Below the pieces are notes generated by a model, which saw nothing but the letters and a program-made list of their open reading frames with translations, searched no databases and was not told the DNA's origin. This document shows, piece after piece, positions 33,179-64,000 of a DNA stretch of 64,000 nt (its first letter is position 1; each line of letters begins with the position of its first letter). Position numbers and translations under genes: made by a program. This DNA comes from Ceratodon purpureus (Eukaryota; Streptophyta; Bryopsida; Pseudoditrichales; Ditrichaceae), in contig CM026428.1 in the NCBI GenBank assembly GCA_014871385.1, positions 6,179,471 through 6,243,470 of the forward strand, written 5' to 3'.

Positions 33179-33244
33179 GCTTTGATACTCCTTCTAAGTT
33201 GCTTTGATACTGCTTCTAAGTTGCTTTGATACTCCTTCTAAGTT
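33179..33244 (+). repeat. 22-bp tandem repeat, three copies
   Basis: GCTTTGATACTCCTTCTAAG plus TT is repeated three times with one substitution, just upstream of the transposase start codon. It is probably in the 5' leader. Confidence 0.85.
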
Positions 33245-33297
33245 GCTTTAAGTTTGTGTTTACAATTTGCCTTGGGTTTTACTGTGCAACTCTGAAA

Positions 33298-40239: not shown

Positions 40240-43200
40240 TTAGATCTCCCAATTCCATCTGTCTAAAAGCATGCCAACTTCATTGAATGTCCAAGCTGGC
40301 CGGTGAATGAACTTATCGTCCACCGTACATCCCATGTATCGTTGAAGAAGACAATAAAGGTGCTTGCAGAGGATCCACTTCTTCTGACCACGACCAAGGG
40401 CTGTGGTCTTCATAGTAATAAAATCAAGGCATGTACAGGCAGGAAAATCTCCAATTGTAACCTCGTACAATTGATTCTTGGCAATGGAGCCAGGAGTGTG
40501 GATAGTGTAAACAACTCCATAGCCTGGGTATGGAACCTTCACATATTTTACCACAGAGCAGTCGGTGGTAATTGATTTGACAAACTTGGCAACATGCTCA
40601 GGTGAAGGTTCAGACACATTCTTGAATTTCTTACCATCTCTCATGGTGGGACGGTAATCTCCAGATGACTTAGGAGGTCTTGGACCATCAACAGGCTCAG
40701 ATGGAGCGTAGATAGGATTGCTCCAATGAAAGGCATCAGAGGACTTTTCTTTAGGCGGATGGACATCCTCCTTGTCACCTTCAATCCCCTTAGATGGAAG
40801 AAGGTGATCCTCCTCCAACATGAAACCTGCAGATTCCAATCCGTCGACCTCTACTTGTGATAAATTAGTCCCCTCCTTAATAGGCCAAACATTAGGAACA
40901 ATAGGATAATGCATAACAGACTTGGATCGACTCCCCATCACGCACGTAGCCAGTTTGGATGGACAAAACCAGAACTGCTTCTGCTCCGTATCTTGAGATT
41001 TGAATTTCCTTTGAAGGCCAGTAAATGTTGGTGCAGCTATAGCCCTTCGATACTTCGCCATCACCGCATTGCATCTCTTGCCTTCAGTGTTATAGCCTCT
41101 GCATTGGTCCTTGGATTGAGGTGAAATCCGTTCAATTCGCCACTCCATCGGATTGTAACAAGGAGTCTCACGGATTGGAAGGCCGTTGCGAGTAACCACA
41201 TGTCCTTCTACACAGCCTTCAGTCACTGAAGGATTGCTTGTGGTGGAATTCTGATTCAACGAGCGGCTCTGTCTTGGCGTCATATTTTTCCCTAGCTTGG
41301 GAATAGTGAAATTCACTCGGTCATGACGATGTGAATCATCATCATCTCCAGGAGCCAAATCTAACTTCCTCTTCGCTGAACCAAAAACGTTCTCACCTTC
41401 AAGATGAGGCAACCTTGAATTCAAACCCGCCTCACCTGAAATTTCACCAACTATTTCAGCCACTTTTACAGGATTACCCTTACGAGTAGCCAAACGAAGC
41501 GCCAACACATTCCGAGATGGACCTTGTCCACCAAGACGACCCTTGAGATAGTTGTGATATTGTGTTGACTGCAATGCGGCTCTGCAGTAGTCATCAAGTG
41601 TGGCGTTGTAAAGATCCACCATATCATTCCCAGATGCTTGTAGCCACTTGTTGTGCACTGTCTCAGACAAATTGCATGTTGGCATAGAAGCCTCTTCTTC
41701 AAAGGATAGAAACTGCAAAAAAGATACAATAATTGATGTTATTATCACGTTATGCTATAGAGAGTGGAAATTATATCATGGTCAAAAGTGACGAGAAAAT
41801 GTAAAAGTCAAAGTTCATTAACAAGTATTTAAACCTTGGAAGCATTTTTCAAAAAAGTATATGTAAAACAATGTAAACAATGTCAACATACAGTGTAGGA
41901 AACAATACTGAATCAACCCCGAAAGTGAATTAAACATATTAAATGCAGAGGAAGATGGTGTTCTGTGCAGAACACCATTGAGTGACAATTTTATGGAGCT
42001 TATGGAATACAGAGAATAGCGTGTTCTGTAAAGAACACCCTCTTCTCTCCCATTGTGGGGGTCCAAGTTTTGGGAACGTAGAGAGTGTTCTGTACAGAAC
42101 ACCCTCTACGTTCCCAAAACTTTGACCCCCCACAATGGACGAGAAGAGGGTGTTCTGTACAGAACACCCTATTCTCTAAAATCAACATTGACGTCCAAAA
42201 TGGACGAGAAGAGGGTGTTCTGTACAGAACACCCTTAAACCACTCATAACATGGACCTAAAAAATGGACCATAAAAGGGTGTTCTGTACAGAACACCCTT
42301 GTTGATCCAAGATTACTTCACAATTGTACTATGCAAACTGACCACTTCTACTTAGTTAGATAACCAGATCTCAATATAAAATAAAAATTAGGGTTTTACA
42401 TTCATACCTCAGAGATGTGTGAGCCCCATTGATGGTAGCGAAAGTGCCAGAAATTTATCCAGTCGTGAAGCTCTTTTAAAGAGCTCTCAGCAACTGCACC
42501 GGATGAAAACCACCATGCCTTGATGGCTGCCAAAGCGGTATCAGCATCGGATTTTGAACGAGATTTCCGATAGTCTTGGCAGAGCTTCAAATGGACTTGT
42601 TGGAGCTCTGGCTTGATGAGTTGCTTTGTGTGACGATCTAACGCCATCGTCCAGTGGAATTGGCATGTACGCTCCTTTCCTTCCATCGGCTCTTTTGGGT
42701 TCCCTGATCCAAATAAGGATCTGACGGCATTGAAGTTTGCTTGAGCTGAATCCGCCATGAAGCCTTTGAAGTTCACATTTGTGATCCCATGCTTTTCCAA
42801 AACATTCAGCATCGACAACCACATTCGTTCCTGCGCTTCTGTTGTCTCGGACTGCATGTCACAAACCGCAATCGTCATGACCTTGCAATAATCAGGGTCA
42901 TACACATGAATCCCGAGGGTGCTCCACTCCTTCACTCGCTTCACGTGGTCAAACATGACCCACTCGTTCTCAAGGTCTCCACCAGGTTGCATCCTTCTTA
43001 CAAGACCAACACCGCTCCCGACGCCACAAGTAGACATCTTGAATAAGTATACCAAATCGCTCCCTTGACCAGGGAATACACTATCATGTACGTAGTCATA
43101 AGTTGATGCTTTCTTCAACTTCAGAATGTTATCAATGTATCCGCCCTCGCCACAGAAGCGCCTAGCCTCTGCAATCATGTTGCGGATACTAGGAGTACTA

Positions 43201-44690
43201 AGCTTCGCCCATTTGTCAAACACCTGGGACATCTCAGCCTCAGTGAGTTTCCGTCCCTCGCCAGTGACATCCACAAGGCCTTTAAGAAGCAGCTCCCGCC
43301 CGACTGCCATTCCTATCGCACTGGCCTTAGCATTCGGAGTACGAGCCACTTGGGTCAGGACCTCCTCACGGATAAGATCCAATGCCTCTCTACATTCTCC
43401 ATTAGCAACTGGATGATCATGCGTGCCTATGTGAACCGCAGCCCTCGACATGCACGGGTTCTTGGAAACAATATAGAACATCTTACACGTGCATAATTTC
43501 AAACAAGCAGGGGCAACTCGACAAAATCGACAAAGAAGTGAACACCTCTTAGGTAAAAGTGGAGTAGGTCCTGGTGTCATTATCTCTGGTGTTGAGCCTT
43601 CCCAATACATGTCGTTGTAGTCGCCATTCCGAATTATGTGAGGACACGTAGGATTCAAGCATCGGAGATGTCCCAGACACTTCACGTACTTAAACGAAAG
43701 CTCTGAATTTGGATCGGAGATGTTTGTTGTAGCAGTCTCGGTCCAAGCGTGGCCATCACTTCTTCTATCCATACCATCAAGCATGCCTGCACCTCCTCCC
43801 TTCACGCACGGTAAGGGTGGCAATTCAAAAATAACATTCCCGTTGTACTCCACTGGCAGGTATTTGACCTTGTGATGTGAAAACGATGCCAAATCTGCAG
43901 ATTTCAAAACACTCTTTGATGCCTTCTGGTTTCCAAGCGAAATGATGAAGTCGTAAATACTGACAATAGATGTCTCTGTGGTATCTGCCACAGACACTAC
44001 TGAAGGCCCCTTCTCCGTCTTAGCTGTTACATCTGTGGATACTGGCTTCTCTTGTATTAAGGTCTGCGAGCCTATAGAACAACTGACTTCACGTTGAAAA
44101 GATACTGAACATGGTGTGTCATAGGACATGGACTCTGAAACCACATCTCTGGATGGCGTTTCAGAGACCACAAAAGAGTCATCATCAACAACATGTGAAG
44201 CCTGACGAAAACTATCCTTTCCATCACTACATCCATCTGCGCTAAAATGAAACGCATGCATTGCAATTTCATCATCCTCATCATCGGAGCTCAACAATGT
44301 GATTGTATTGTCCGGGGATTCCTTCACAGTTGGTAACAACCTAGTAAGACGACTATGACCACGACGCTCAAATGATGCTAGTGATCGAGGGGTGAGAGTA
44401 GACGACTGAGACATGTCAAAAGTAGCAAGCCCTCCTATGATGGTATAGCTGCCTGCCTGAAGCTTGTAAATCGTTCTCCCATCTATCAGTTCAGGTTTCT
44501 GATAAATAGTCTTCACAACAGCTCCATCAGCTCCAAACTCCTCCTTCTCTACTATCAAAGATGACTCATGTAACTGAAACTTAAGACACAACAATCTCTC
44601 ATCGACGGTCACGTATCCCTCGTCATCAACTAGAAGGATGAAAGGGACTGAAGAGGTGAGAAGTCGAAAAGAGACTACTTGGTTAGCCAT
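40240..44690 (-). CDS. MULE-like transposase-derived protein with WRKY-GCM1-type zinc finger and SWIM domain
   Basis: Two exons, 44690-42408 and 41712-40240, join in phase 0 (CTGAG|GTATGA donor, TTTTGCAG|TTTCTA acceptor). They give 1,251 residues with no stops. A variable Ser/Asp-rich N-terminal third comes first. A zinc-binding region follows near residue 350-440 (CLNPTCPHI, CRFCRVAPACLKLCTCKMFY, HIGTHDHPV), of the WRKY-GCM1 kind seen in Mutator transposases. Next is an RNase H-like core (VYDPDYCKVMTIAVCDMQSE, GFMADSAQANF, RTCQFHW). The C-terminus has a SWIM finger (CTCLDF...LCKHLYCLLQR). It is either an active MULE transposase or a domesticated gene. No terminal inverted repeats or target duplication were identified. 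The 695-nt intron holds a six-copy palindrome array. Confidence 0.82.
41960..42294. repeat. Six palindromic sites at 63-65 bp period, inside the MULE-gene intron
   Basis: The 14-mers start at 41960, 42023, 42087, 42152, 42217 and 42281, with spacings 63, 64, 65, 65 and 64. Four are the perfect palindrome GTTCTGTACAGAAC, extended to GGGTGTTCTGTACAGAACAC in the later copies. The spacers of about 40-50 bp are different but share fragments such as TGGACGAGAAG. The two spacers around 42087 are themselves inverted copies of each other (about 42050-42138 is a near-perfect 88-bp palindrome). Confidence 0.95.
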
Positions 44691-44741
44691 TGCCAGAGAT
44701 TGCTGGAGGTAGAAGGGTGGAATACAAAAAATGGAGATGGA

Positions 44742-44748
44742 TTATATA
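44742..44748 (-). promoter_or_regulatory. Probable TATA box of the MULE-like gene
   Basis: TATATAA on the minus strand lies about 52 nt before the ATG at 44690. This would place the start of transcription some 20-25 nt before the coding region. The palindrome array at 44934-45074 lies about 190 nt further upstream. Confidence 0.45.
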
Positions 44749-44933
44749 CTAAGTGCAGATCCTAAAAAGAATAAGGGAACGACTGTTCGAGTGAGAATGG
44801 GGACAATAGGGAGCCAATGTGGTCACTACAAAATACTTGCAATTGGCCTCGAATTAGAGTCACTAAATTAAATCAGCACAGAATGACTGACAGCGACAGC
44901 TAGTGCAACTCTAAAAACTGCGTGCAAATGGTT

Positions 44934-45074
44934 GTTCGGCACAGAACGGGGGGAAAAAGATAACCAGTGAGTGATGTTGGAGCGATATGATTCTGGTGTT
45001 CTGTACAGAACGGGGGGAAAAGGAAATCAGTGTGTGATGTTGAAGCGCTGGGATTGTAGTGTTCTGTACAGAAC
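44934..45074. repeat. Three palindromic sites at 63-64 bp period upstream of the MULE-like gene
   Basis: Sites start at 44934 (GTTCGGCACAGAAC), 44998 and 45061 (both GTTCTGTACAGAAC). The first two are followed by GGGGGGAAAA and a similar spacer (AGTGAGTGATGTTGGAGCG versus TGTGTGATGTTGAAGCG), so this part is a tandem repeat of about 64 bp. Confidence 0.9.
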
Positions 45075-45248
45075 GAACCTTTCCATTGAACATAAATCAT
45101 ATTAAATTTATTTTCAGAGTAACAGATTTATTACATCTTCACTATGGTAGACAAATTAAAAACACTATGATGTGGAACACAAATTATTATTAAATAGTAA
45201 GTGACCAAAAAAAAGAAATTAATATAAATATGAATTTGAAAGTCATAG

Positions 45249-45284
45249 AGAGGATCGACAAAATTAGAGGATCGACAAAATTAG
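45249..45284 (+). repeat. 17-bp tandem duplication
   Basis: AGGATCGACAAAATTAG is repeated twice in tandem. It is a short minisatellite between the arrays. Confidence 0.7.
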
Positions 45285-45811
45285 GAGTTAGTTGATAAAT
45301 AACGACAGTATATGTACTAAACACTAATAGATTCCAAAGTGTGCGCAGATAATTCTTTATAAAAAATAGTGGTAAATTGCAAATATTTGCTGGCTAAATT
45401 ATTCTCTGACCTGAGCCGAAAGTGCCATGCAGATAATAGAGTGCAAGCAAGGAGCATACTATTCATAAATTCATTTGCAGAGCCGTGTATATTGTGGCTG
45501 CTACTTATTTATTGAAGTTTGTACAAAATTTCTAATATGGTCCAGTAGCCGACCTAACCAATATTTATAAACTGAAGATACTATAGCATGAGCTACCAAT
45601 CGAATCACTTTGCAAAATAGTATAATTGTCAAATATATGATTGACTCAGATTTACAGTAGTGACAATTTTAAATCATATCTTTGATCAATGGTGTAGGAT
45701 GCAACAAATCTGACGGCTCTAAGTTCCACCCTTGAAAGTATAAATATGATGGTTTGAACCACTTCTCAGTATCATTTGTGTGTAGTAGTTTTCATTATGT
45801 GCTTCTGAGAT

Positions 45812-45988
45812 ATGGTCGAGACGAGAGCTGTGAGAAGAGCGAAGGCATTGCTGGAGATTGTAGAGATAGGTTTGAGTAGCGAGAAGAAATCGGCCACCGC
45901 GGAGGCTGACGGACGTGACTTCTATAGGAAGACCTACAGAAGACGAATACCAAGCACTTTTACAAATAAACATCAAGAGGTACTCTAG
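45812..45988 (+). CDS. Possible small basic protein (58 residues)
   Basis: ATG 45812 opens a 58-codon frame rich in Arg and Lys (MVETRAVRRAKALLEIVEIG ... FYRKTYRRRIPSTF). CAAGAG|GTACTC near its end is a good donor. The acceptor TTCCAG|AGCCGC at 46091 continues it in phase for 19 more codons. It stands between the two divergent large genes and may be part of the 5' region of the plus-strand one. The family is unknown and coding status uncertain. Confidence 0.3.
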   Translation: MVETRAVRRAKALLEIVEIGLSSEKKSATAEADGRDFYRKTYRRRIPSTFTNKHQEVL

Positions 45989-46097
45989 AACCTTAGATAT
46001 GATGGCATCTATGTATGCTTCTTTCATTCAAATGTTAGTCATTATTTCTTTTTTGGTCTTGACATGTGGAAAATAATGTGATTGTTCCAGAGCCGCG

Positions 46098-46433
46098 ATG
46101 AAGCCAAGTTCAGCTTTCAGTTTGATCATTGTTGTAGAGGTGTCCTTTGAAGCTCTTGTCATTCTAGCGATTGGGACTATTTGTGTTACATATCTAATAG
46201 TTTGGAATCGAGATGACGCTAAGAGGGGGCCAAAGAGAGACATTAATGCTTCGGTAGCCCCCCCCTCAGATAGCTCTTCAGTAGTTTCTAGTAGCACAGA
46301 CCAAGAAGAGGATCACTTCAGTGAAGCATCTTGTGATTTGTGGACTCCAGAAAGAACGTTCAATATGTACTGTGAGTTCTACGAAGGGCTAGGTGAAGAG
46401 GAGCTGCACAACTTAGAAAATCAAATGGAATAG
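46098..46433 (+). CDS. Possible small single-pass membrane protein with acidic tail
   Basis: The frame encodes 111 residues. One clear membrane segment (residues 6-34, FSLIIVVEVSFEALVILAIG followed by TICVTYLIVW) precedes a positive RDDAKRGPKR stretch. A Ser-rich and strongly acidic tail follows (SSSTDQEEDHFSEASCDLW, EEELHNLENQME). The membrane-positive-acidic order is unlikely by chance but I know no family. It lies 1.5 kb upstream of the ParB-methyltransferase gene on the same strand. Confidence 0.4.
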   Translation: MKPSSAFSLIIVVEVSFEALVILAIGTICVTYLIVWNRDDAKRGPKRDINASVAPPSDSSSVVSSSTDQEEDHFSEASCDLWTPERTFNMYCEFYEGLGEEELHNLENQME

Positions 46434-46618
46434 TAATTACTAAATCTTTTGCGAATTATTTATTAGGCAAATATAGAGAATGTTGCCTCTGATTATATTC
46501 TCTTTAATGTAGAGTATATTTACATTAATCAATTAAAGTTATTACGATCTTTTTCGCTGAATTCCGAAACATCAACCTGTAGTGTAACTCAATCTCAAGT
46601 ATTTATACGTATTATACA

Positions 46619-46795
46619 ATGTCGAGCAAATTGATGGACCTCTACTGCGTAACAGATGTAGATTATTGGATGAATCCTTCCCTTAGGTTAGAAGCGGCGG
46701 GTGCCCTTATATGCCCTATGTTCTTGATCTTATTTCTTTCCTCCCTGTGTGACTACATGCGGTACAAGCTCTCTGAGTACGATATGGTCTGCTAA
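46619..46795 (+). CDS. Possible 58-residue membrane protein
   Basis: ATG 46619 to TAA 46795. A polar start (MSSKLMDLYCVTDVDYWMNP) is followed by a hydrophobic stretch (AAGALICPMFLILFLSSLCD) and a YMRYKLSEYD tail. With the neighbouring frame at 46098 it makes two small membrane-type ORFs in a row upstream of the ParB-methyltransferase gene. No homologue is known to me. Confidence 0.3.
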   Translation: MSSKLMDLYCVTDVDYWMNPSLRLEAAGALICPMFLILFLSSLCDYMRYKLSEYDMVC

Positions 46796-47027
46796 GGCCG
46801 TTTGAATCAACAAGTGAGTCACTGAGTTCTAGAAGTTGAATGTTTTGTATGGATAGTTTGCATGCACAGCAGTGAGTCAGTACAGCAGTTAGAGATGGGA
46901 AACTGTGAGCTTTTATTTGTAATCAGATCTGATATGGTAGATGTGGGTGTGCTTCTAATTCAGATAGATAACGCGAGGGTTCATACGTACTCACCGTGGC
47001 TCCACGGGGATATAAGTCTAGAAGTAC

Positions 47028-47949
47028 GTTCTGTGCCGAACAGGCTAAAAGGCTCTTCGGGCACATTAGTGGATTGGCTCAGTCTGCTCAGTTCTGTGCC
47101 GAACACACATATATGAGAGGTCTACAATGTGGGTTTGATCCCGGACATGTCTGTTAAGCTATAGTAACCACATCTCTGAAAGTTCTTTCCCTAGCATGTT
47201 CTATACCGAACTAGCTTTTGTTTGATGTTGATGATCTGCGTTCGGTGCCGAGCAGGTTCAAAGGTTGCTCAAACAAGACCTTTGAAATCGGTTTCTCTAA
47301 TGTGTTCTGTGCCGAACAGGCATTTCTAATAAGTCTATGATTTGCGTTTGATATAGAACAGGTTCAATAATTGCTTAGATCATATTACTGAAATGATGGC
47401 TTCTTATATGTTCTGTGCCGAACAGGCTTTTGCTAGGAGGCTAATGATCTATATTAGGTGCCGTGTCGGTTGAATGGTAGTCAAGTTCTCTGACTATGAA
47501 AGGGTGTTCTGTAACGAACAACCTATCTCGGCTCACTTGAAATGTTCACGTCAGGACTCTGTTTGACCTGTTCTGTGCCGAACACCTTGTCAAGGGGCAA
47601 AGTCCTACCAGTTTGTTTTGACTAATGGACTGGGCCTGTAACAAACAAGCATTTAAGCCGACTAGATCGTATGCTCCATTGCTATTTGTTTGAATCATAT
47701 TGACAGTGGCAGTATTGGAATTTTCGTAGTCTGAAATTTATTTGGCTTCATACGTGTGATAAATTGGACATGGTAGTATTGTTCTGCACCGAACAGCATA
47801 TTATGATTCAACTAAATCACTATTTTTAGTCAATATTTGAAATAATACGATGAAATTGGATTTAATGATAAATATAGTGCTAAATATAGTACTGTCCATT
47901 TGACAAGGTTGATATCGTATCATTTCAATATTGTTGTTCTGTGCCGAAC
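47028..47949. repeat. Array of about 13 palindromic sites upstream of the ParB-methyltransferase gene
   Basis: Site starts, including degenerate ones, are 47028, 47091, 47198, 47240, 47304, 47346, 47410, 47452, 47506, 47570, 47633, 47781 and 47936. Spacings alternate 64 and 42 in the middle (106-bp supra-period), with 63-64 elsewhere. The strong sites are mostly GTTCTGTGCCGAAC. The weak ones (for example 47346 and 47452) keep the phase although their sequence has drifted. The last site ends 24 nt before the first ATG of the gene. Confidence 0.9.
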
Positions 47950-47972
47950 GACTAATATGTCCATCTTTGACT

Positions 47973-50900
47973 ATGAAGAATTCGGTAAGAGGCTGCATCG
48001 AAGAGGAGGGTGGCAGCAAGATGGCGGACAAAACAAGTGTTGTCATCGGAGAAACAGGTAACATCAAGTTCCTTCAGACAATACATGCAATACCTAGACC
48101 CCGAAATTTGGTAATTTATTAGATGTATTCTGTAACAAACAGCATAAATTGGTAATCTAAAATGATGTATTTATTATGATGTATTTTTCTGAGTGCCCTG
48201 TTAGACGTGCTTGAGGATGGACACGACAACGCAGGCCAAGTGCCACCAACGCAAGGAAGTGCAGGTAACAAGTTCGTACTCATTCGTTTCGATCCATGAG
48301 CTTGTCTTGTAGGTTGAAAATATTGAATATGGTTTTTTACAAAAGTTGGTATTCATGCAGTTCATAGAAATGATGACGAAGGAACAGAAGACAGCAACAA
48401 GGACAACAAACAAGTGGTAGCTAATGCGGGTATCTCACTAAACCTATGATTTCATTTGAACTAATCTGAAATGAACTCCATAATATAAGGAACTCAAGGT
48501 ACCCAATTTGTTTAAACTAGATTCCTTATAATACATTTGATGTTTATAACTAAGCGCACGATGAGGCTCAAGTTCAACGTTCTGTGCCGAATGGGTAACT
48601 TGACTGATATGAAACCCGGACATATCCTAATCTGACGAGATTTGTTACGGAGTTTGTTATTTAATTACATGTGTTCTGTAACGAACAATATAATTGGATA
48701 GTCTGAAATAGTGATAGAATTATGATGCATGCTTCTGAGAGTCCCCTACTCTGAACTTAACTCGATAAATGGTTAGACTGAAATACCGTGATGGTATAAT
48801 GATGTTTTTTATTTCAGAGGTACTCACTGTTGAGGACGGGCATGAAACTGCAAGCCCTATTCAGCTAACACAAGGAATTCAAGGTACACAACCTGTTTAA
48901 ACTAGTTTCCTTGGTTTCATTTGTTTTGTTTTCGGAGATGGATCTAACGTGAGGCGTGATCATCTATAAGCAGTTGGGAGGAATGAGGCAGAAGGATCAG
49001 AAAATAAAGTCGAGGACAGGAATCTTGAAGATGTCAATATGGGTACCATACTAATTCTAGTACCACATCACAATTCGGTTATGAGCATGTTCAGATGGAA
49101 AAATTAGTGCCTTTGCTTGATCTCAATATCCTCGTTCTGTGCCGAACATCCTATATGGCTAAAACTGATGCTGCTCAATCGTTGTTGTCACGAGGCAGAC
49201 GATGATAATAATTCGGGAATGGACGGAGATGATGGTAATGACGATGATGGTAATGACGATGACAGCAGTGAAGATGATGCACCCGATCGAGTGGAATTCC
49301 TTGCTCAAGATGACGATATTGATGAGGATGAAGCTCTTGAGTTTGGACTAGAAATGACTGATGCGAATTTGGATGCTAGGGAAGAGTACGACTTGATCGT
49401 CGCTCACAGAAAGACAAGGATCAATTCAATTGAAATTCTGAAGCGCTTAGAGATGTTCGAGGGGGGGAAATCTCATATTGACATTCCGCTTTGTAGAATG
49501 CGTAAGCTCCAAGTGGTACGTCCAGCGCTTGAAAATGATATAATAAAAATGCAGGCGGATTTTGTCCATGGCTATCGACAGGGGGCTGCAGCTTTCTATG
49601 TTTCCACCACTAATTTTGAAGGCCATGAGAAGATGGTCACCCAAGAAGAGAGAGAGAAGTGGTCACCGTGTTGGCAGAAAAGAGATTTGGAATTCGAACA
49701 ATTCCTCAAAAGCGACAACGAACTTTCGGAGCTGTCCAACAAGTTCTTTTATGTGTGGGACGGCAACCATCGATTGGTCGCCTGGTATGATTTTATTAAA
49801 AAATCTCATCGTAAGGAGTACGATTGGCATTTCAGGGTGAGATCGATTGTCTTAAAAGTCAAGTATGATGTCACAGATGTTCTCAATGCTATGCACGACG
49901 TCAACAAATCCAACGAGAACTCACATGTCAAGCAGAATACAGTTCATACGCTTCACCGAATTCAGAAACTTGGATCCTTGCCTGTTGAGCAGTTTCGGGA
50001 ACTTTTGGCCCCAGATGAGTATTCCGCGGCTGTGAAGGCATTGGAGGTTCCTGCTGATAAAAAGCCGTGGTATCCAGTTCCCAGAGCGAAATTCTTGGAA
50101 TTAATCCATTCTGTAAGCATGCCTTACTATTCAAATTAAACTTCATGCTCGGTTTTTATTATTGGGACGTGTATATTTCATGAGTCTCACTATTTCAATA
50201 CTATTCTGCAGCATGAAATCTCTGAGGCAGGAGATGAAGGCCAGCGAAAATACGAGGATGAGACACCGAGGCGAAGGCGCACTGCAAATGGTTTGCTGAA
50301 GGCAATTAACGGGGCGATGGACGCCAAGAGGAAGGCATTGTCTGCTGCGTTCACGAAATACCTAACAATTTCAAACCCAGCAAATGGGAAACACTTCCTA
50401 ACCGAGGTATGGTTGAATCAAATTTTTGTTTGTTGTGTGTCATAGCTACCAGGAAGTGTGAGGATTATGAATCTGATGGAATGCAGCCCCCAATATGTTG
50501 TTCGGCACAGAACGGGTAGGAGTAGTGGAGCGAAACCAGATTTCCTTGAAAGTTCAAATGCTAGGATTGTAGTTACTGAAGTTAGTTTATGGTTTAATTA
50601 TGCATAATCAGCTGCTACTGTTCTGGAACAATATATGATTGGGTAATTTGTTAGTGGTCTCGGTTTATATATTCATGTTCGTTAAGTGAGGTTATTAAGT
50701 TGGCAGGTCCTGTACGGAATGTGGTCACTTGGAGTCAAGGCTATTCGGTACCGAACAGGGTAGTTCTCAGGCAAGAGAAATAGTGTTTGGTACCGAACGG
50801 GTTAGTTCAGGCTCGTGAAATAGTCTTGGCTACCATGTGGGTTAGGTTTGTTTTTGCATGGTTGGTGTGAAGTCAAGTCCTCACAATCTAGCGCAGCAGT

Positions 50901-53900
50901 AGAATAGTTAATATATCATCACTACTATTTGGGTCTTCACTTGTGAATAAACTAATCACTATTTACTTACACTAAGTCATCATTTTCTGTACTGTGCAGA
51001 TTGCCAAGCATTGGTCCGCCAATTTGACACCAGAGATGACTACGGAGAAACTACAGAATTTGGCATCTTCTAGCATTCCATCTACAGAGAAGGAGGCCAT
51101 TTTGAAAATCTGGAACTCGTCGAAGTCTGACAGGAAGATCAAAAAATTCCCTCTTGCTCCTTTCAATGACAATGTGTTCAACACCTACCTTCATAAGTAT
51201 GTGTTCTGGTACCAGTTGAAGGTGAATTCTTTGGAATTCTACGATACAATCATCTATGAGTATCTGCCACTAGAGAAGAATCCAAGTCAACCTTTCCAGA
51301 AGTACATTGAGACCAATCGGATCAGACAATGGGATTATGCATATAATTTACCTATTCTAAAGAAGGAGATAAGCAAGTCACACGAGTGGGGGTCTTCTAA
51401 GCAACCTCACGGTGAACCTGCCATGAACCGCCTTGTCTACAGGTGTGTACTTTCCAAGCATTCTTTTTGTTTTTTGACATGTTTTAAAATGCTTAGTTTA
51501 TCGTAGTATAAGAATGATGTTATAAGGCTGACATTGTATTAATTTTCCTTGAAGATACTGGACCAATATCCTTCAAGTGGAAGAAATTGTTCCAGAGGCC
51601 CATCCGATTTTTGCGTCATGGCTTGATCTCCAAAATGACGAGTGCATGTTCACCAAGGACCAAGCAAATGACTGGGATGAGAATCATCTGATGGCATGTC
51701 ACTGGTATATCGAGATTGATCCCCTCGAGACGCCTTTTCATGAGATTGAAAATCGGCGTCTGGTGGAGCCATTGTTCCAGCGCGCAATTCCTCTTGAACC
51801 TGCGAATGTGGGACGTTCAACCGGAGTTGCTATTGTTTCTGGAAGAGCCGGTAAATCCAAGTCGAAGGGTCCGATTCAGAAAGGTACTGCTCCAAATGTA
51901 GTTGCACCACCAAAAGAGCTCCTTCCCAAGGCAGGCAAGCGTACGGCCGAAGATGCACCTGGAGAATCATCAAAACGAGGCAAACGGGATGAGCCGAACG
52001 AAGATCGAGAGGCCCAGGATGACGCTGCTCAATCAAAGTACAGCTCCTCTAAATCCTTGTCGCAGATTACGAGGGGTTTTGGAGGTGCATACATTCCGAC
52101 TCTGAGAAGGTCTTTGGTTCAGAGTGCCCCACGAGGTACAAAATACCTTGAGCGCATAATCAACAACTCGCTTGAAGATTTCTTGGCGAGTGAAGACACA
52201 GAGTTCGAGGAATTTGCATACGAGGTACATTTCAGATTATTTTTATTTTTATCTTGCCCAACTACTGATATCTTTGAGCTAAACCATGTTCGGCACCGAA
52301 CAGTATGTCTATGTCAAGTAGTTCAGTGAGCATATTTTGTTTTTTTCAATAACTTAACATTCAAGCATCCACTTTGTAATTTTCAGAAATAGTATTTTGA
52401 TCTAGGCTCAGATTTCTCTTCAGTAACCATCACTTCGTAGTTTCACAAGTAGTATGAGTTTAAGATTCTGTGCTAGATAGTTTGCATCAGCATATCCCCT
52501 TGCTTGTATCAAGTTCATGCACTTCCCATTTGCCACACTATTGTTCTCACGGAATTTTGGTAATCATTATGATCTGGAATCTAAAGGTTGATATATTGTA
52601 ATAGGCAAGAGGAAGCGATCAGACTTATCTTTGAGGCAAGGAAGACGTTCACCCAGTAGCAGATCTGGTCATCATTGACCAGCCATTTGAGACAGTGGTG
52701 GCTGGTTTTGGTGATGCCATTCCCAAATGGAATTCGATCGACAGTACCAAGAGGGAATGGTATCAGTCGAGGTTTGAGTTTATAGATGACTACCTGCAGG
52801 ACGATGGCGCCATCTTGATTCTTATGCCGATGGGTTTGAGCCACGAGCTTATGCACTGGGTGATCAAGTATAAACTGAAGACGAAATGTGAGTGGCAAGT
52901 TCATCAATCTGAGCCTCTAACACATCCAGCTTATGAGAACATGATGGTAAGTTTTTCCTTTTCTCATTACTGTGTAGTATGAACTTGTACAAACTTTCCC
53001 ATTCAATACCGAAGAAGACTAAGTCTGGAGTCGCGAATTTTACATAGGTTTTGAGCCATGTCTTTGCTGTTTTGTTTTATAATTTAGATGTCGAGTTCGA
53101 CTTGTGATTAATGTTTGATACTGTGACTTTTCAGACGTTCAGCTTCTCTGCGGTCCTCCTGGTTAAAACCGGCCGTGTTAGGGATAAGGTCTGGGACCGG
53201 CTTCCGAAGCCATTCAAGCTCAATTCAGACCCCTTGACAGCCAATACACCTGAGGATCCGATCCGGTATCTCGCACTTAACAACTATGTGGAGAAACCAG
53301 CCCTCGATGACAGCGGTAACCTCTGGCGTGGGCCACATGAGAAATCAGATATCCTTTTTCAAATTCTCATTGATATGTGTACAAAGCCAGGGGATATTGT
53401 CGTCGATCTGAGTGCATCCACAGGTGCCTCTCTTCGAGCATGTCGGGCTTCAGGTCGCCATTTCTTCGGCCTCGAAGAAGACACCAACATATATATGGGT
53501 GTCTTGAAGCCTCTTCTGAAGCCAATGACGAAGACACACGAGCGAAAGAGGGGGAAAGCGAAGATCCGTTCCGGTATGGATGGTTCACACAGTCCTTGAC
53601 CTAGCTCGGTATGATGTCTTCTGATAATTTCGAACCAAGTGATCCCATGGCTTGCAGATAAATCATATTAGTGGTGTCCATTCGGTGGTCTATCTTCGTA
53701 TTTTTTCAAGTATGTTCATTTCAAGCTCCATGCACTGTTCAAAATGAACCATGATGGTAGCAAGTTCGAAATATTAAGAGTTTTACTTTATGTTTACATA
53801 TTTCTTATGCGCCCTTCCAGTTTCGCTCCCCTTTGCAAATTGAGTCTCTTCTGCTAACTCAATGAGGTTACACTTACATTGCATTCACAATTTGCAAAAA

Positions 53901-54302: not shown

Positions 54303-57110
54303 AGAAATCCTTATAATTTGACTGTCATGGAAAGACATGTCCATCACCTTATTTACTTGTTTTTGAAAATTGAATATTTAATGTAACTTTCTATTATAAG
54401 AATTACTATTAAGGGACATACTATTATAAGTATTGTTTTCCTATTATTAGCTTTCTAGCTCATTAATATTGAATATTTTGTTTACTATAAATTACTATTA
54501 CCACAAACGTCATCTGTATCTAATATAGAGAATTGGCGATTATAATATTCACACATTCCAAAAATAGTTTGTGTTATATGTTATAGAAGAAATCTTATAG
54601 ATATAATGTATTTTTGTTCGTTTAGTACTCTGAACCGGATACATATTAAAGCATTATGTACTTATATCTACATTAAGTTCAATATCTAGAAAAATCTTTT
54701 CAATTTAAATCCTGATACCAATCCTTAGCATAGTTGGAAACCACAAATAGTATAGATGGACTACGGAATCAACATACATCTCAAATATTTTATCTTCATA
54801 CATTGTAAACCAATATATTTATATATAGTTGTATTTTAATATTAAGTATTCTATATTATTATCTATAACAGTGTATATAAATCTATATGTATATGAATAA
54901 TAATTTGTATGAAGAAAACATCCTTAGATGATTTCATATGTATATAAAACAAAATATGAATACATATACATTTAGAAAGCTATCCAAATACCTAATTATT
55001 TGAGTTTATAAAATAATAAATTATATGTATGAAGTATTTAAGGATGTATGTTAGTAACAAAATATTTAGATAAATATATAAAACAGTGAGTCATAATATT
55101 ACCATCTTGTTATAAAAATACATGCTTAAATACCTTAAGGTATAATAATATATCACCAACCCATATATCCTTTATTGTTTAATTAATATTATTGTTTATT
55201 GTATGCAATGACATATTCAATAATATTTTATGACTATCATGTTCTAGCCAATTAAAGTTTTATTGTCATTTCCAAAAAAAATATAAATATTTATGTATAT
55301 GTCATAAAAACAAATCTAACAAACTCACACAGATCTGGTAAAATTAGAATAATTTATGGCAATTATAAATTTGTAATAAAATAATTTTGTATCTAATTAG
55401 AGTTTAATAGCGAGTCTTTAAAAAAAAAATTAAATAGCCTATGATTGATATGATGATTGGATGAATTAAATAAATATTACATATAATTTATCCTTTTCTA
55501 CTATAAATACGTCATATACTAAAGATATATGTAAGTTTGTATATATAACTTAAGAATAAAACTTATATCATCTATATTAATGTTTAATTATAATTATATA
55601 TATGAATATATCTCTATGTATTCATAAAAACATGTATATAATACCTTTGTGTAGACATATAGTTATTCTACTTATATAAGAATGTCTAAATATCTTTACA
55701 GAAGTAAAATATATCCATCCCTATATGCATATTGAATACCACGTGTATATACATGCCTATCCACGTGTATATACATGCCTATATATATATCAAATACTAG
55801 TACATGCACATAAAAGACATGCATATGAATATATAATATTTATACATATGTTATATATTTATACTAATATATTATATTATAACAATCCATATAAGCTATC
55901 CAATACATTACATTTATACTAATATATTAGATGACAATATATTTTTAGATAGTTATATTTTCATATTATTTACTTTATATTATTGTATATCTTAAAATAT
56001 ATCAATCTATATGTATATCAATATATTATATATATACATATACACATGTATACATATATCACATGCATAGATATTTTAATATTCACATATATGTTTGATA
56101 ATTCATACACTCCATTTAATTTTATACGTCCCGATGATTCCTCTGGATATGAAAAAAAATTATATTCTCATATATATTTCAAATCATTTTTTGTAAATTT
56201 GAAACACATTTATATTTAAGTACTCTCTATAGTGTATAAGTATACTTCTAAACTACTGTATCTGGAGATTATTTACTATTTATAAAATGGTATTACTTGA
56301 AATTTATATTTATAAGAAAATTCAATTTGACTTTGATATTCTATAGGACTGATGTATATTAAACAATATACATCATTGTAAATATTCATAACATAAATTT
56401 ACATGGCTTTATTATGATATACTTATTTAGAATTTAAAATAAAACATACCAATATGTTTATATGTGTATAAAAACATATTTTATATTAATTCTATATGAA
56501 ATTTTATGTAAGGAGTTATGGATTCAAAATGGGTTAGATATGTCTATCTTTGACGGTTAAATATATATATTGGACCTACATGTTACAAAAAAATACAATT
56601 TAATATATGTGTATACAAATACATAGAAGTTATAATACCCATGCTTAAATAATACCTTGCCAAGCTACATGAAATAACTTATTAGAGGTTCGTTCACAAA
56701 TTTGATAAATAATTGATTAATCATAAGAGTAATAGATAGACAAGTCAAAAGTATTTTTCAACTATATGTATATATAGATAAATGATGAAAACAAATGTAA
56801 TAAATATAATATACATAGAAATAAATATAAATATAATTATAAATATAAATAAATATAATTATAAATATAAATAAATATACCTTATATACATATATTTATA
56901 CAAATATTTATATTTATATTTATATTTATATTTATAAAAATAATTCTCTCTCTCTCTCCATATATATATGAATATATGTATATAATATATATATATATGT
57001 ATATATATGTATATATATATATAATATATATATATATATGTATATATATATAATATATATATATATGTATATATATATTCATATATATATATATATATTA
57101 ATATCTATGA
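54303..57110. other. Very AT-rich region, no genes
   Basis: About 2.8 kb of extreme AT content with many ATATAT runs, a 22-bp tandem (CCACGTGTATATACATGCCT plus AT) at about 55739-55782, ATAAAT repeats near 56820-56935 and a CT run at 56941-56958. Frames seen here are low-complexity Ile/Tyr strings and not genes. Confidence 0.7.
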
Positions 57111-57190
57111 ATATATGGATAAATATATATGAATATATATATATATGTGTATATATATATATATATATTCATATATATTTATCCATATAT
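57111..57190. repeat. 80-bp AT palindrome at the edge of the duplicated segment
   Basis: ATATATGGATAAATATATAT and the following GAATAT are mirrored exactly as the complement ending at 57190. Such AT palindromes extrude cruciforms and are known breakage hot spots. The duplicated segment begins at 57183 inside its right arm. Confidence 0.85.
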
Positions 57191-57786
57191 CCATATATGT
57201 AAATATCTATAATTCCATATACATGTATGTATGTATATCATAAGTATATGTATAAGGGTTCACATATATTTTCATATGTAATGAATCAAACAATTTATGA
57301 TCTTGTTTAACAATTGAACACGTACTATACATCTATTATAAGAAACATAATTGGCTCATAAGAAGGCGTTCTGCACGAACAGGGTGTAGTCAGCCTAAAT
57401 AAAATTTAGATTAAATACGTCAATTTCAAATGTTCTATTTACTAGGACGCGACCGGATTTGGTGTTCTGTACCGAACGAGGTAGTGTTCTGTACAGAACA
57501 AGGATTTTTGTGTGACCCAAGTACCTCGTTCGGCACCGAACAGCACGGTAGTCAGGGTAATGAAGTCAATATGGAAAAACCTAGGTCCGTTATAAAAATA
57601 TTTTTTTTTTACAGAACATTGTTTTTATACCAACCTAAATACTGTGTTCGGCACCGAACGCCCTTCTTTTTCAAGGGTGAGTCTTTTAGTTAGTTTTTTA
57701 ACATTGGTGAATGCTTGCATTGAACCATACATAATTAGCACCAACATAGGGTGTTCGGCACCGAACAGGTCATGTAGAGTTACGTG
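57183..57786 (+). repeat. Duplicated 0.6-kb segment, copy 1 (with phased palindromes)
   Basis: Nearly identical to 62107-62707 in the same orientation. The few differences are an AT-run length change near 57595 and single substitutions. Palindromic sites lie at 57368 (one base short), 57464, 57486, 57528, 57646 and 57753. Spacings 22, 42 and 107 are close to 2, 4 and 10 helical turns. Confidence 0.95.
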
Positions 57787-59229
57787 TGGTTGATGGATGC
57801 AGGGTGTATTTAGGAAAAATATAATCAAATAATCATTATTGGAATTTGTATGTTTGGGGATTGATATTAGCACATGCCTCTTTGAGTGTTCACCAAATAT
57901 TTGTTTCTATGGTTAGATATTTTGTTTTCTTGATGAGAATTAGAATCTTAAACTTTATTCATTAAAGATATTTCTCTCATTGTAGCCAACATTTAGAACA
58001 TCATTAATTGTGAAATCTCCACGTAGCTCTCAAAGTGTGTATTTTTGGGGTTCTATATTATTGTTGTTTCTACCATATTATATAAGTTGAAGGAAATTGC
58101 TTTGAAAATGGTGGGTCACTGCCAATGACCTCATGAGAATTTCTACCTTTCACCAACAAATCATTCATATCCCTCCACCTCTCATACACACAAAACAAGG
58201 CTAAACTCATTATCATCACACAACTACAAAAATCCTCAAAATCCCGGAGCATTTGTATCAAACTCAAACTCAAACTCAAACTCACACCCTGGAAAGATCA
58301 GGCTCTACGTACTACTACACATGAACAATAATTTAATCCTTCAACCGAAAATATTCATACCCAACCAATCGTTAAGATCATCACTTTACATATCGATTCC
58401 TCAATAAATGAATCAACAAAAATACACATAATATTTCTAAAACAAACTAAAACAATCAGTCAACATGTTTGTTTTTCAACGTTTTTAATTTAATTAAATT
58501 TTTTTATCCACGTTTCGGATCCTTCTCCAGAAGTTCCAACATGTGAGCAAGTGGTACAAAGGGCAGCTCATGGTGGCAGCTCAGATGGACTTCAGAGATT
58601 GGGCTATAACGGGTATGAGAGTAATAAGACAGGTCGCCTTTTGGTGGTTGAGGGTGGTAATGAAGGCCGTCAACAACCTTCTACCGTAATCAAATTATCT
58701 AAACCTCCGCGGAGAGTGCACTAATGACGCCGCAGCCACTAATGCCGCACTCTGCAGATCATCGATTATCGATCATCGATCATCAGCTCGATTGCAATTC
58801 AAACTAACCAGTCCGGTAAGTTAAGCGAGCTGCTAGCTATCTAGCTTTGTACATATGCTTGACGTGCCGGTGTCGTTTTTATTGGCGTTGAGTTCGGTCG
58901 ATTGAGGAGGCGTGAGGTTAACGGACTGGAGCTCATGGGGGAGGACAGAGCCAGGTATCATGCAGCAGCTGGGATTAAGCGTCTGGGTTATTATTGTAAA
59001 CTGCAATGTGGTTTCATGGTGATGTATAGTATCGTCGGGTTTTGCGAAGCGGGGTTTTTCGGAGAGGATTGGTAGTGAAAGTCATTGGCTGCGCCTTGAT
59101 GAGTAGAGTCTTGATGTCTTAGAGTCTTGATGAATAGAGTCTTAGGTGTCAAGGTTTAGAGTTGGATAGGTGACCCAGAGCTTTCTCAATTGTTCCGTCG
59201 AGAGCGAAATCAGCCGGCTTAGTTGAGAT
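57787..59229. other. Intergenic region
   Basis: No supported gene. It contains a CAAACT hexamer microsatellite at about 58257-58285, an ATCGATCATCGATT cluster at 58755-58790 and a small tandem of TAGAGTCTTGATG at about 59103-59150. Confidence 0.5.
59170..59191 (+). repeat. 22-bp direct repeat, left copy
   Basis: The 22-mer ends in CCCAGAGCTTTCTCAATT and recurs exactly at 59843-59864. The two copies bracket the start and most of the lipase-like ORF. Confidence 0.85.
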
Positions 59230-59904
59230 ATGATCAGTTGTCTGAGAATGAAGAAGGTTCCGATGGCTGTGCTGTATGTGTGCGTGCTGTTAGCGGTGCT
59301 GGTCAATGGCGCGAGTGCTTCAAAATTTTGCGAGGTGGTCGTGGAGCCGCTCGGCTATGGCTGCGCAGAATTTACCGTGCAGACGGCTGACGGCTTCGTG
59401 CTCGCGTTGCACCGGTTGAGCAGGATCAACTCATTCGTAGGGAGAGGTGAACACGCGAGTGCTCCAGTAGTTAGCAGGTCCCCCGCATTTGCTCCAGCGC
59501 CTTTGGAGAGCGATCCGATTGTTTTTCAGTATCCCGAGGGCCGTGGAGCGCCATCCCCGACGATGACTTTGAGCGGTAGCAGTAACCTTGCGAGCATCGA
59601 TGAATCAGCAATGCGTGCATTTTCCTCAACTGCAGTGGCTCCTTCGCCAAGGCAACCACCGGTGGATTTCAGAAACGGGAGCACCGGTGCTCATCATCAT
59701 TCCAATTCGGCTGATTGTACGCACACAAGAAAGCGACCGCATCATCACTCACAGGGATCATTTCCAGGCGCGCCAGAAGCTGAACTGGTGCCTTCAAACA
59801 GGACGGCAGGCGTTACTTCACCGACGCGGCCTGAAGTTGCGTGTGACCCAGAGCTTTCTCAATTTAGATGGAGGGATATGGCGAGATGGTTTGATGGTAT
59901 TTAG
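59230..59904 (+). pseudogene. N-terminal fragment of a plant acid lipase gene
   Basis: The 224-residue frame starts with a signal peptide (MKKVPMAVLYVCVLLAVLVNG). It continues with CEVVVEPLGYGCAEFTVQTA-DGFVLALHR, the entry region of lysosomal/plant acid lipases (usual form: CxxxxxxxGYPCxEHxVxTxDGYxLxxxRI). The alpha/beta hydrolase core with the GxSxG nucleophile elbow, normally within the next 150 residues, is missing. The remaining text is Ser/Pro/His-rich and unlike the family. It is therefore a broken or exon-only copy, or a first exon whose partners lie elsewhere. GC-rich composition contrasts with the flanks. It is bracketed by a 22-bp direct repeat. Confidence 0.5.
59843..59864 (+). repeat. 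22-bp direct repeat, right copy
   Basis: Identical to 59170-59191. Here it lies inside the open frame, near the end. Confidence 0.85.
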
Positions 59905-60833
59905 AGTTTAGGGTTCAAGCGCGGCCAAGGTCGACGAGAGTGTAGAAGATCGAGCGAGTCGACATGTTCGTGGCTGCTGAGGTCTAGGGTTTTTGTTGTT
60001 AGTTTGTCGCAGGTGATGCACAGCGAGAAGTTGAAAGAGCGACGATCGAGAGTCGTTTGGTAAGTGAAGCTCAGTGAAGATCGGGAAGGGTTCGGGAGAG
60101 GTGACAACGATCTCCGCACACAGCAAAGGCACACGAAACGAAGAAGACGAAGTTAGCTGGACAAGGAGGAGAAGAGACGCCGTTCCGAGACGTCATCCTT
60201 CACTTTCCGCTCTAGATCCTGAAGCGGTTTGTTTGCGCCATCAGCGAGGCAAGGGAGGGCGTGACGATAGAGGTGAGCTGCTAGTCATGTGGTAGTGGTT
60301 TGCTATTTATGGTGCATTTATTTGCTATAGGGAGTTCGGTCGATTGAGGTTCTACGAAGGGACTCTTCAGAATTGCATATTTCAGTGCTGAATTTCCCTT
60401 CCTTTTCTGCAGGTGGAGCTCTCATCGTTTATTCAGCACCTGTCATAGTTTTCTCCATTTTCGAGAGTGAGGTTGCAGGGACTCACGGAGCTGCGTTTGG
60501 GTGCTTGCTGTGGGTGGTGGCATTCTCTGGGTCTACTGCTGGGTGTTGTTCCACGTGTGTTGTGGCTACGCGGGTTTGGTGTTAAGCGTAGAAGGTGTGT
60601 GCAGCAGTGATATGGTCCTTTTGTTCTCAAGCATTTTTTTAATTCTTAGTTGCCCGCTTGGACAACTGGGCAACTGTTTTCAAGGATCTCTATTTTTTGG
60701 AGTAGCGTTTCAGCAGCGCAGGAACAAGCTTGCATGTGAATTGTTGAAAATTATAACATTAATGGATTGGTGAAAATTGTTCTTATATCATCCTTGTTCA
60801 TGTTTAATTGTAATGCTTACAATTAAAGAAAAA
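59905..60833. other. Non-coding region downstream of the lipase fragment
   Basis: Several short frames, some Gly/Cys-rich (60373-60585 plus), but no recognisable domain. It may be decayed gene sequence, as it is less AT-rich than its neighbours. Confidence 0.4.
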
Positions 60834-61002
60834 ACACTAGGTGGCAATTCCTTGTAAAATCCCTTTTTCTCTTCTTTGTTAGAACCAAGGCAGGCGGGAC
60901 ACAGGTTGACCACATGGTCCCTGATGGGACGCTTTTATGCTGGAAGTTCTTCCTCTGTTCAACTTCTTTATGTATTCACTCTTCTAGTTTTGCCACCTAG
61001 TG
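60834..61002. repeat. Small inverted-repeat element (possible MITE)
   Basis: CACTAGGTGGCAA at 60834-60846 is mirrored by TTGCCACCTAGTG at 60990-61002. Outside these, AATTGTAAT and ATTACAATT are also inverted, giving imperfect longer arms (about 60806-61035). There is no coding capacity. The target duplication was not resolved. Confidence 0.55.
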
Positions 61003-61215
61003 TCTTTTATATCTACATATACTAATTACAATTAATACCATAGTACCATGAAAATAAAAAATTAAAGGAATGTATAATTCATTATGAAGAGCAGTTGTAA
61101 ATCATGTACCAAAGTCCGGCTACCAGCCAAAGCATAGTGCAATCTAACTTACTCTACCACTAGAGACACATGTGTGAAGTTGCCTCTTCTCCGTCTTGAA
61201 ATGACTCAATTTGAT

Positions 61216-62118
61216 CTAATTGCCCATCAGGTCGTTGCTGACAAGATATCTGACGTAGAGTGGCTCAGGTATAGGTCCGTCTGACTCCACTCTTTCTGTC
61301 ACGACGCAGTAGAGGACGTTGCTGCACACAGCTCCATTTTGAGGGTTGAAGAACACACCCAGGCTGTGGAGAGGCATGCTGCTGTCTGTCGACCAGGCAT
61401 TTGTGATGGAACTGTAACCTTCGAGGTATGGGCGCATTCTATGGTCGTATAGTCCAACAGCCAAAGCATATGTGCCAGTTGACCTATTGACGATCAGCTG
61501 AGTAAATATCCATACGTAACCGAGTGCCGGCTCTGCATTGAATATTAACATGTCTGGAAGTTGTCGACATTCTTGTGTGATAGGATTGCACACAAAGAGG
61601 CCAGCTGCTCCAGTTTCGTTCCTGTCTCGAAAACATAGTAGTCCTCCGTCGCCTGAGCGCACATTGTGTGACCTGCAAGCAAGAATTACTTATTCCTTTC
61701 ACAGAGAATACAAGGCTCTCATTAAGATAATTGGTGATTCTCAATAGGCTGTCATGTATCTAGAGTGATTTTATGAGCACAATCATTGAGAAAAGGAAGT
61801 CGGTTTACTTGATACGACGTCTTTAGCTTGAGGAGGAAGGCATGAAATAGCTGGCATGCTAACCCATCGGCCAAGATCTGGACAGTAGGCTGTGCAGGTG
61901 AGATTGTTGCCAATAGATAGGAAAAGAAGAAGGTGGGATACTTGGGGAGATAGGTCTGCCCATGAAAGCCCACTTGCACGAATCTCTTGAAACTTCGGGG
62001 AGAATATAAACGTGGCCCAATTCTTGCAAACAGCTCGAATACGAAACAAGACCGGGAATGGCAGGGAAGCTATCACTTTCTCGATTAAGTCCAGTGACAG
62101 CTGCTCCCATATATCCAT
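61216..62118 (-). CDS. F-box protein, probably truncated at both ends
   Basis: I join 62118-61809 and 61652-61216 (TATCAA|GTAAAC donor, GCTCAG|GCGACG acceptor). This gives 248 residues reading AKDVVSSDGGLLCFRDRN over the junction. The F-box is LSLDLIEKVIASLPFPVLFR followed by IRAVCKNW. After it come kelch/F-box-associated type phrases (LFVCNPITQECRQLP). The protein would act as substrate receptor of an SCF ubiquitin ligase. Relatives are usually near 400 residues, so the C-terminus looks short. The start codon and the first codons (MDI) lie in the 62107-62707 duplicate, so the original 5' end was replaced there. An alternative acceptor at TTGCAG|GTCACA gives a different frame and is less likely. 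Confidence 0.65.
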
Positions 62119-62707
62119 ATATGTAAATATCTATAATTCCATATACATGTATGTATGTATATCATAAGTATATGTATAAGGGTTCACATATATTTTCATA
62201 TGTAATGAATCAAACAATTTATGATCTTGTTTAACAATTGAACACGTACTATACATCTATTATAAGAAACATAATTGGCTCATAAGAAGGCGTTCTGCAC
62301 GAACAGGGTGTAGTCAGCCTAAATAAAATTTAGATTAAATACGTCAATTTCAAATGTTCTATTTACTAGGACGCGACCGGATTTGGTGTTCTGTACCGAA
62401 CGAGGTAGTGTTCTGTACAGAACAAGGATTTTTGTGTGACCCAAGTACCTCGTTCGGCACCGAACAGCACGGTAGTCAGGGTAATGAAGTCAATATGGAA
62501 AAACCTAGGTCCGTTTCAAAAATATTTTTTTACAGAACATTGTTTTTATACCAACCTAAATACTGTGTTCGGCACCGAACGCCCTTCTTTTTCAAGGGTG
62601 AGTCTTTTAGTTAGTTTTTTAACATTGGTGAATGCTTGCATTGAACCATACATAATTAGCACCAACATAGGGTGTTCGGCACCGAACAGGTCATGTAGAG
62701 TAACGTG
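62107..62707 (+). repeat. Duplicated 0.6-kb segment, copy 2
   Basis: It matches 57183-57786 at an offset of about 4.92 kb, beginning with CCATATATCCATATATG. Its palindromic sites are at 62292, 62388, 62410, 62452, 62567 and 62674. Its left edge is the 5' end of the F-box coding region. The last ~50 bp are repeated once more, diverged, at 62826-62882 (site GTTCGGCACAGAAC at 62840). Confidence 0.95.
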
Positions 62708-63084
62708 AGCATAGTTACAAGATTTTTAGTTAATTGTTTCTAGATTTCAGCAGATATGATCCAGCAGAAAGAAAGAAAGTCTTATGTACATCAATAGTAG
62801 GAACGTCTACACTCTGGAATATTTGCACCGAGATAGGGTGTTCGGCACAGAACATGTCATATAGAATTATGTGAGCATGATAGAGATTGTCCAAAGCTGA
62901 CGACATATAGTCCAAAAGAAAAGTCTCAAAAAGTCCAATCCAGTAATCTGCACAAACATTGCAAGCATGTTAAATGATTAGAATATGTATTTGCCGCTAT
63001 AGATCAGAGTAGAAAGTATACTCATTTACATTAGATAGTTCAAAGCATGGACAGTGCAGAATTTTTACCTTTCATTCCGATCCT

Positions 63085-63986: not shown

Positions 63987-64000
63987 CCGGATAGTGCTCT

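Follow-up and report, generated by a model that had tools for sequence, protein, structure and literature searches.

We analysed a 64-kb window (the whole stretch of 64,000 nucleotides) of the genome of the moss Ceratodon purpureus, whose right-hand part carries a set of regularly spaced palindromes, GTTCKGYRCMGAAC. By its sequence, the DNA that holds them is a Mutator-like (MULE) DNA transposon of about 27 kb. The left part of this element occupies 39721–64000, delimited by ends common to four of four compared copies and by a target site duplication (TSD). In our reading, the palindromes are putative binding sites of a regulatory protein.

The window copy (W, on contig C8) was compared with copies A, B and C and a remnant, D, all on contig C1, which puts the element at several places on two contigs. 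The four copies are mutually collinear and have the same left end, GAGGGAGGCTATGACATGAGC, and right end, GCATTCCCC. In W, the left terminal inverted repeat region (39721–39800, plus strand) starts with GAGGGAGGCTATGACATGAGC and carries tandem (C)ATGAGC-like repeats; the position of the right end, C8:6259270 (extended coordinate 79,800), is past the window's edge, and the element is therefore not visible whole in the window. A, B and C are 26.8, 27.2 and 28.3 kb long, and W is longer (40.1 kb; 40,080 bases) because of later insertions. TSDs of 9–10 bp (three of 10 and one of 9) flank all four copies (ATGACACTGC in W; GCTCATACAG, TGGAATGGCC and GTGTTGCCC in the other three). The left and right ends match as terminal inverted repeats over 51 bp at 88% in A and 43 bp at 86% in B, and for W and C the alignments reported pair their ends with the opposite ends of A or B. 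Both features agree with the available portion of PMC6446971, in which MULE TSDs are 8–11 bp long and most families have terminal inverted repeats. A length of about 27 kb is large for a MULE; Pack-MULEs reach at most 7 kb in the accessible part of a review of giant transposons (PMC6431247). The remnant D (C1:15533001-15553000) is degraded and inverted, its palindromes are flanked by stretches matching the element, and neither end motif could be located there in exact form.

Two ORFs (open reading frames) on the minus strand are assigned to the transposase. The main one (42402–44741) has a ubiquitin-like N-terminus, a WRKY-like zinc domain and an IS256-family transposase-like region, according to a model of low confidence. 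The other (40240–41754) is probably transposase exon 2 and is intact in A, B and C; by eye it contains a SWIM-like CxC...CKH segment, for which the Pfam SWIM match is weak (E = 0.54, in copy A). Further right, part of a third gene (63141–63998, minus strand) encodes, by eye, a coiled coil and a RING-like cysteine/histidine segment. This right-hand gene is interrupted by about 13 kb of inserted DNA, which runs from near 63,960 to beyond the window.

Between them lies a methylase-like gene (45812–53598, plus strand; about 1,100 amino acids), whose product combines a DGNHR motif that looks ParB/Srx-like by eye with a divergent N6/N4 DNA methylase domain. Its mapped exons lie at about 45812–45961, 49195–50112, 50212–50406, 51000–51442, 51555–52224, 52605–52946 and 53135–53598; the 5′ part includes some 85 unmapped residues, and the 52605–52946 exon has an in-frame TGA. 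The Ceratodon protein P0080 covers 100% of the spliced model, at 58%. PF01555 scores (28.1 bits for the window exon, 30.4 for P0080 and 35.0 for P0081, KC19_7G101700) exceed the curated cut-off of 26.7. The catalytic pattern [DNS]PP[YFW] is replaced by DQPF in W, A, B and C, by DTPF in P0080 and by DQPY in P0081. We describe the product as carrying a predicted N6/N4 amino-methyltransferase domain with a divergent motif IV. The bdelloid rotifer N4CMT and other eukaryotic amino-methyltransferases likewise have a bacterial-type domain in a eukaryote, but the moss protein has D[QT]P[FY] in place of SPPY or DPPY and is transposon-encoded (compared with the available part of PMC8885841). Directly after exon 1, at 46089–46430, lies an ORF that is conserved in C (45% identity) and A (28%) and, judged by eye, probably encodes a membrane helix; it is absent from P0080 and is possibly an alternative product with exon 1 in common.

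In the window, GTTCKGYRCMGAAC occurs 29 times exactly and 8 times with one mismatch. All 37 copies lie within 41,960–62,853, in agreement with the 35 to 40 that the first-pass annotation had given for this interval. As it also claimed, the first 40 kb contain no exact or one-mismatch copy. A single copy with exactly two mismatches is found there, at 32,884, not far from a pogo-like transposase ORF (33220–35148; 642 codons, open; DDE_1, E = 6e-11). Ten Markov-1 sequences of the window's composition yielded averages of 0 exact, 0 one-mismatch and 0.1 two-mismatch sites. Across the 362.5-Mb genome there are 984 exact copies, compared to 11 for the same pattern read backwards. The palindrome set is therefore real and far from chance. 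The design of the palindrome was derived from 129 copies in W, A, B and C, each with no more than one mismatch or with two mismatches and intact GTTC/GAAC arms: two half-sites, YGTTCKGY, stand head to head without a gap, making 16 bp. Site quality within 41,960–62,853 is bimodal, with no two-mismatch copies beside the 29 exact and 8 one-mismatch ones, as if decayed sites were quickly renewed or removed.

The sites form four clusters, whose positions agree among the four compared copies: between the transposase ORFs, upstream of the transposase, inside the methylase-like gene and close to the right-hand gene. In W, the first cluster (41755–42401, a probable intron) has six palindromes, at 41960, 42023, 42087, 42152, 42217 and 42281, and the second (44934–45074) has three, at 44934, 44998 and 45061. 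The third (47028–52301) lies in introns of the methylase-like gene, with sites at 47028, 47091, 47198, 47240, 47304, 47410, 47506, 47570, 47781, 47936, 48579, 48673, 49134, 50500, 50743, 50785 and 52288; those before 49195 may instead fall in unmapped short 5′ exons. The fourth follows an AT-rich stretch (57464–57766; sites at 57464, 57486, 57528, 57646 and 57753) and occurs a second time at 62388–62853 (62388, 62410, 62452, 62567 and 62674, plus 62840). The clusters at 57.46–57.79 and 62.39–62.71 kb are a single duplicated stretch, 98–100% identical, and are therefore not to be counted twice.

Every exact site that we placed falls inside the element. The first 50 of the 984 sites, those listed by the genome search, are all on contig C1 in four clusters of 13, 3, 15 and 19, and all 50 lie within A, B and C (47) or the remnant D (3). 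Inside the copies, we found all 29 exact sites of W, 23 of C, 13 of A and 15 of B, along with 3 in D, and none in about 82 kb of DNA flanking W, A, B and C. In all, 83 of the 984 genome-wide exact sites were placed, with 83 of 83 in element copies or the remnant, and the confinement speaks for these 83, the other 901 being unplaced. The remnant still carries palindromes although it shows no match to the methylase-like gene, which is what a binder acting in trans would predict.

The sites also avoid coding DNA. None of the 129 sites overlaps a mapped exon (0 of 37 in W, 27 in C, 35 in A and 30 in B). In W alone, 8,476 of 24,239 bases are exonic, though not one of the 37 sites is (p = 1.2e-7); those at 47.0–49.1 kb may still touch unmapped short exons of the methylase-like gene. 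In alignments of A and B, the site arms are 91.5% identical for the A sites (31 of 35 usable) and 96.8% for the B sites (27 of 30 usable), and the cores 91–92%, compared to 76.6% for the flanks. The data supports selection acting on the sites.

Neighbouring sites recur at distances of 22, 42, 63–65 and 106–107 bp, as the first-pass annotation had described. When the 76 raw neighbour spacings of W, A, B and C that do not exceed 250 bp were binned by tenths of a 10.5-bp turn, the bins held 34, 16, 7, 3, 1, 0, 1, 3, 6 and 5 spacings. The phase tests draw on five copies, of which A and B are closely related. We controlled for duplication by clustering the spacers of 80 pairs (D included) by single linkage at the 99% level of shuffled spacers, retaining one spacing per cluster, while the null shifted every spacing by −10 to +10 bp. 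The phase persisted in the 30 resulting clusters (V = 0.53, p = 2e-5), both in the 19 clusters with spacings of at most 130 bp (p = 1.8e-4) and in the 11 with spacings of 131–250 bp (p = 6.9e-3). Leaving W out did not abolish it: the remaining 25 clusters gave V = 0.49 and p = 2.4e-4, and the 16 with spacings of at most 130 bp gave p = 3.1e-3. The claim that the array is more than simple tandem drift withstands this control.

All 11 neighbours that are 36–48 bp apart are exactly 42 bp apart, and they come from five spacer clusters; 46 of 55 pairwise comparisons among their spacers do not exceed the 95% level of random 28-mers (0.43; mean 0.30). All 14 spacings of 58–69 bp are 63–65 bp, yet they represent only two spacer clusters. 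Degenerate copies keep the phase, as had been claimed: the distances of 15–150 bp from weak to strong sites (n = 50 in five copies, partly non-independent) follow a period of 10.5 (R = 0.49, nR2 = 11.8). Eight of the 14 orthologous neighbour spacings below 270 bp in A are within 1 bp in B. Helical phasing is real, mainly at short range.

We compared the CpG content of the element with that of its surroundings, using 500-bp windows with at least 30% G+C. The median observed/expected (o/e) ratio in the element is 0.74, with 0 of 179 windows below 0.2; in the flanks plus the insert it is 0.58, with 16% of 172 below 0.2. Site-bearing non-coding DNA has a ratio of 0.73 (56 windows of 400 bp), and other nearby repeats have 0.00–0.06 (6 alignments, 1,726 bp; three from one tandem array). 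This footprint fits, without being proof, an element that was little methylated over much of its history.

The window and its extension contain several further features. Inside the element, 54303–57183 is a 2.9-kb stretch of 19.5% G+C, and A, B and C likewise have long AT-rich stretches there. The duplicated element stretch (57183–57786 and 62107–62707, 98–100%) surrounds about 4.3 kb that has no blastn match in copies A, B and C; it includes a weak lipase-like fragment (59.2–59.9 kb, slightly under the Pfam cut-off) and a weak kelch/F-box-like ORF (61.2–62.1 kb; F-box by eye), and looks like captured host DNA. The insert of about 13 kb in W has two 808-bp direct repeats (extended coordinates 65745–66552 and 74289–75096; 99.9% identical), which look like the long terminal repeats of a young retrotransposon. 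Outside the element, two polyphenol-oxidase-like genes (by eye; 10496–12166 and 15806–17637) lie in inverted orientation and are 74% alike over 255 bp.

Confinement of the placed sites, exon avoidance, conservation against a diverged background and short-range recurrence at whole turns, often at exactly 42 bp, all support reading the palindromes as sites of a dimeric protein. We consider it reasonably probable that they are putative binding sites of a dimeric DNA-binding regulator, most likely encoded by the MULE itself, that serves transcription or anti-silencing in the manner of VANC. Under this mechanism, the dimeric protein would occupy the 16-bp palindromes, and adjacent dimers on one face of the helix would contact each other and load cooperatively. 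The dense array would label the element as self, and the bound protein would hold its non-coding DNA open and transcribed, by anti-silencing or self-activation with an accompanying loss of methylation, as VANC does in Arabidopsis VANDAL. For the same-face protein array under selection proposed in the first-pass annotation, site conservation and short-range same-face phase hold up, and the protein itself is putative. Its proposal of a silencer or centromere-like region is not supported: the array belongs to the internal, non-coding part of a MULE of about 27 kb, and the sites are no satellite or centromere.

The closest comparison is with VANDAL21. According to the available parts of PMC5735166 and PMC10398659, VANC21 binds a 9-bp motif that is dense in intronic, intergenic and terminal non-coding VANDAL21 DNA and arrayed in one orientation, leading to DNA methylation loss. 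As far as these parts show, both elements belong to the MULE superfamily and have a dense, partly tandem short motif in their own non-coding DNA that is rare elsewhere, whereas the moss site is palindromic and phased. The words palindrom-, interval and periodic are absent from PMC5735166. The moss element also differs in its length of about 27 kb and its other accessory genes. In maize Spm/En, the element-encoded TnpA binds many 12-bp subterminal motifs and is linked with methylation loss. Here too an element-encoded protein, putative in the moss, is paired with many short motifs, but Spm/En belongs to the CACTA superfamily and the moss motifs are internal.

Several observations weigh against a VANC-like regulator acting through a phased array. 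No VANC (DUF1985) match was found in the Pfam-scanned ORFs and proteins, a scan that left unmapped short exons outside. Because the layout is alike but the site differs and no VANC was found, the moss element would work like a VANC–VANDAL system and not be a member of it. When distinct spacings alone are used, W is phased at p = 1e-4, and the other copies only modestly (C, p = 0.037; A, 0.020; B, 0.027). Tandem units of 65, 63 and about 106 bp are present in W, and ordinary tandem duplication accounts for part of the spacings of 63–65 and ~106 bp. Around the 42-bp distance, weaker sites lie at 36, 36, 39, 43 and 43 bp from strong ones, in addition to six at 42. Six of the orthologous spacings below 270 bp changed by more than 1 bp between A and B (−5, +22, −27, +18, −11 and +57), and just two of these changes, +22 and −11, come close to whole turns; the phasing is called mainly short-range because so few changed spacings shifted by whole turns. 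Single A–B transitions are 1.39-fold more frequent at CG (0.172) than at GC (0.124), yet CG is close to GG (0.164) and GT (0.158); the six dinucleotides tested besides CG and GC span 0.120–0.164, with CWG at 0.118 and GWC at 0.108, and the transition control, with its 6 alignments and 1,726 bp, is small. Finally, good CpG retention equally fits a gene-like or recently mobile element.

Alternatively, the sites could bind the transposase itself away from the ends, either condensing the 27-kb element or titrating or autoregulating the transposase as an internal enhancer or repressor. Clusters inside and upstream of the transposase gene fit this proposal, as does the low-confidence model with its WRKY-like domain and an N-terminus whose matches include PB1 and DIX, which can polymerise. 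However, the densest arrays are located in another gene and the ends bear a different repeat, (C)ATGAGC, and the first 2 kb or so from the left end lack any palindrome. We regard this alternative as possible and rather unlikely. The transposase-binding region suggested in the first-pass annotation is likewise unlikely at the element's ends, since the first palindrome lies about 2.1–2.2 kb inside.

A bolder proposal is that a eukaryotic transposon has its own centromere- or insulator-like address. The phased palindromes would carry a one-face nucleoprotein array of an element protein, perhaps the ParB/methylase-like one in the role of a DNA-binding pseudo-enzyme, exempting the 27-kb element from host silencing; we hold this to be doubtful. 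A related mechanism, in which the DGNHR/methylase-like protein nucleates on the palindromes as ParB does on parS, then spreads into a nucleoprotein complex that protects or segregates the element, strikes us as more doubtful still. Bacterial parS sites are 16-bp palindromes with 7–8 bp arms, and the F plasmid centromere sopC consists of 43-bp repeats. The moss palindrome TGTTCTGTACAGAACA, also 16 bp, resembles parS in size and arms, is built of two YGTTCKGY half-sites (129 sites) and recurs in a regular array, and a gene of the element joins a methylase domain to a DGNHR motif akin, by eye, to ParB box II. In contrast, the moss case is a eukaryotic transposon with several clusters and no profile-detectable ParB domain: the ParB N-terminal domain had no match in the 29 aligned members, P0080, P0081 or PDB sequences, no ParB match came from Pfam, and the fold model is too poor for use.

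Binding by a host transcription factor, the element having copied host promoter sites for its own expression, is very improbable; some clusters do lie upstream of, or early in, element genes, but 0 of the 83 placed exact sites (the other 901 of 984 being unplaced) are outside an element copy or remnant. That the phasing is a mere history of tandem duplication, or satellite drift, is hardly credible, for all the tandem units in W and the collapse of the 63–65 bp spacings to two spacer clusters, because the phase remains when each spacer cluster contributes a single spacing and when W is omitted, and the 42-bp spacers are mostly no more alike than random sequence at its 95% level.

If the palindromes are indeed the sites of a MULE-encoded, VANC-like regulator, sequence-specific self-recognition by MULEs would have arisen outside flowering plants with different proteins and a different site design. 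The geometry of the sites, with dimer sites 42 or 63 bp apart, would provide a testable rule by which a transposon tells its own DNA from that of its host. The methylase-like and RING-like genes of the element would then become candidates for anti-silencing in moss.

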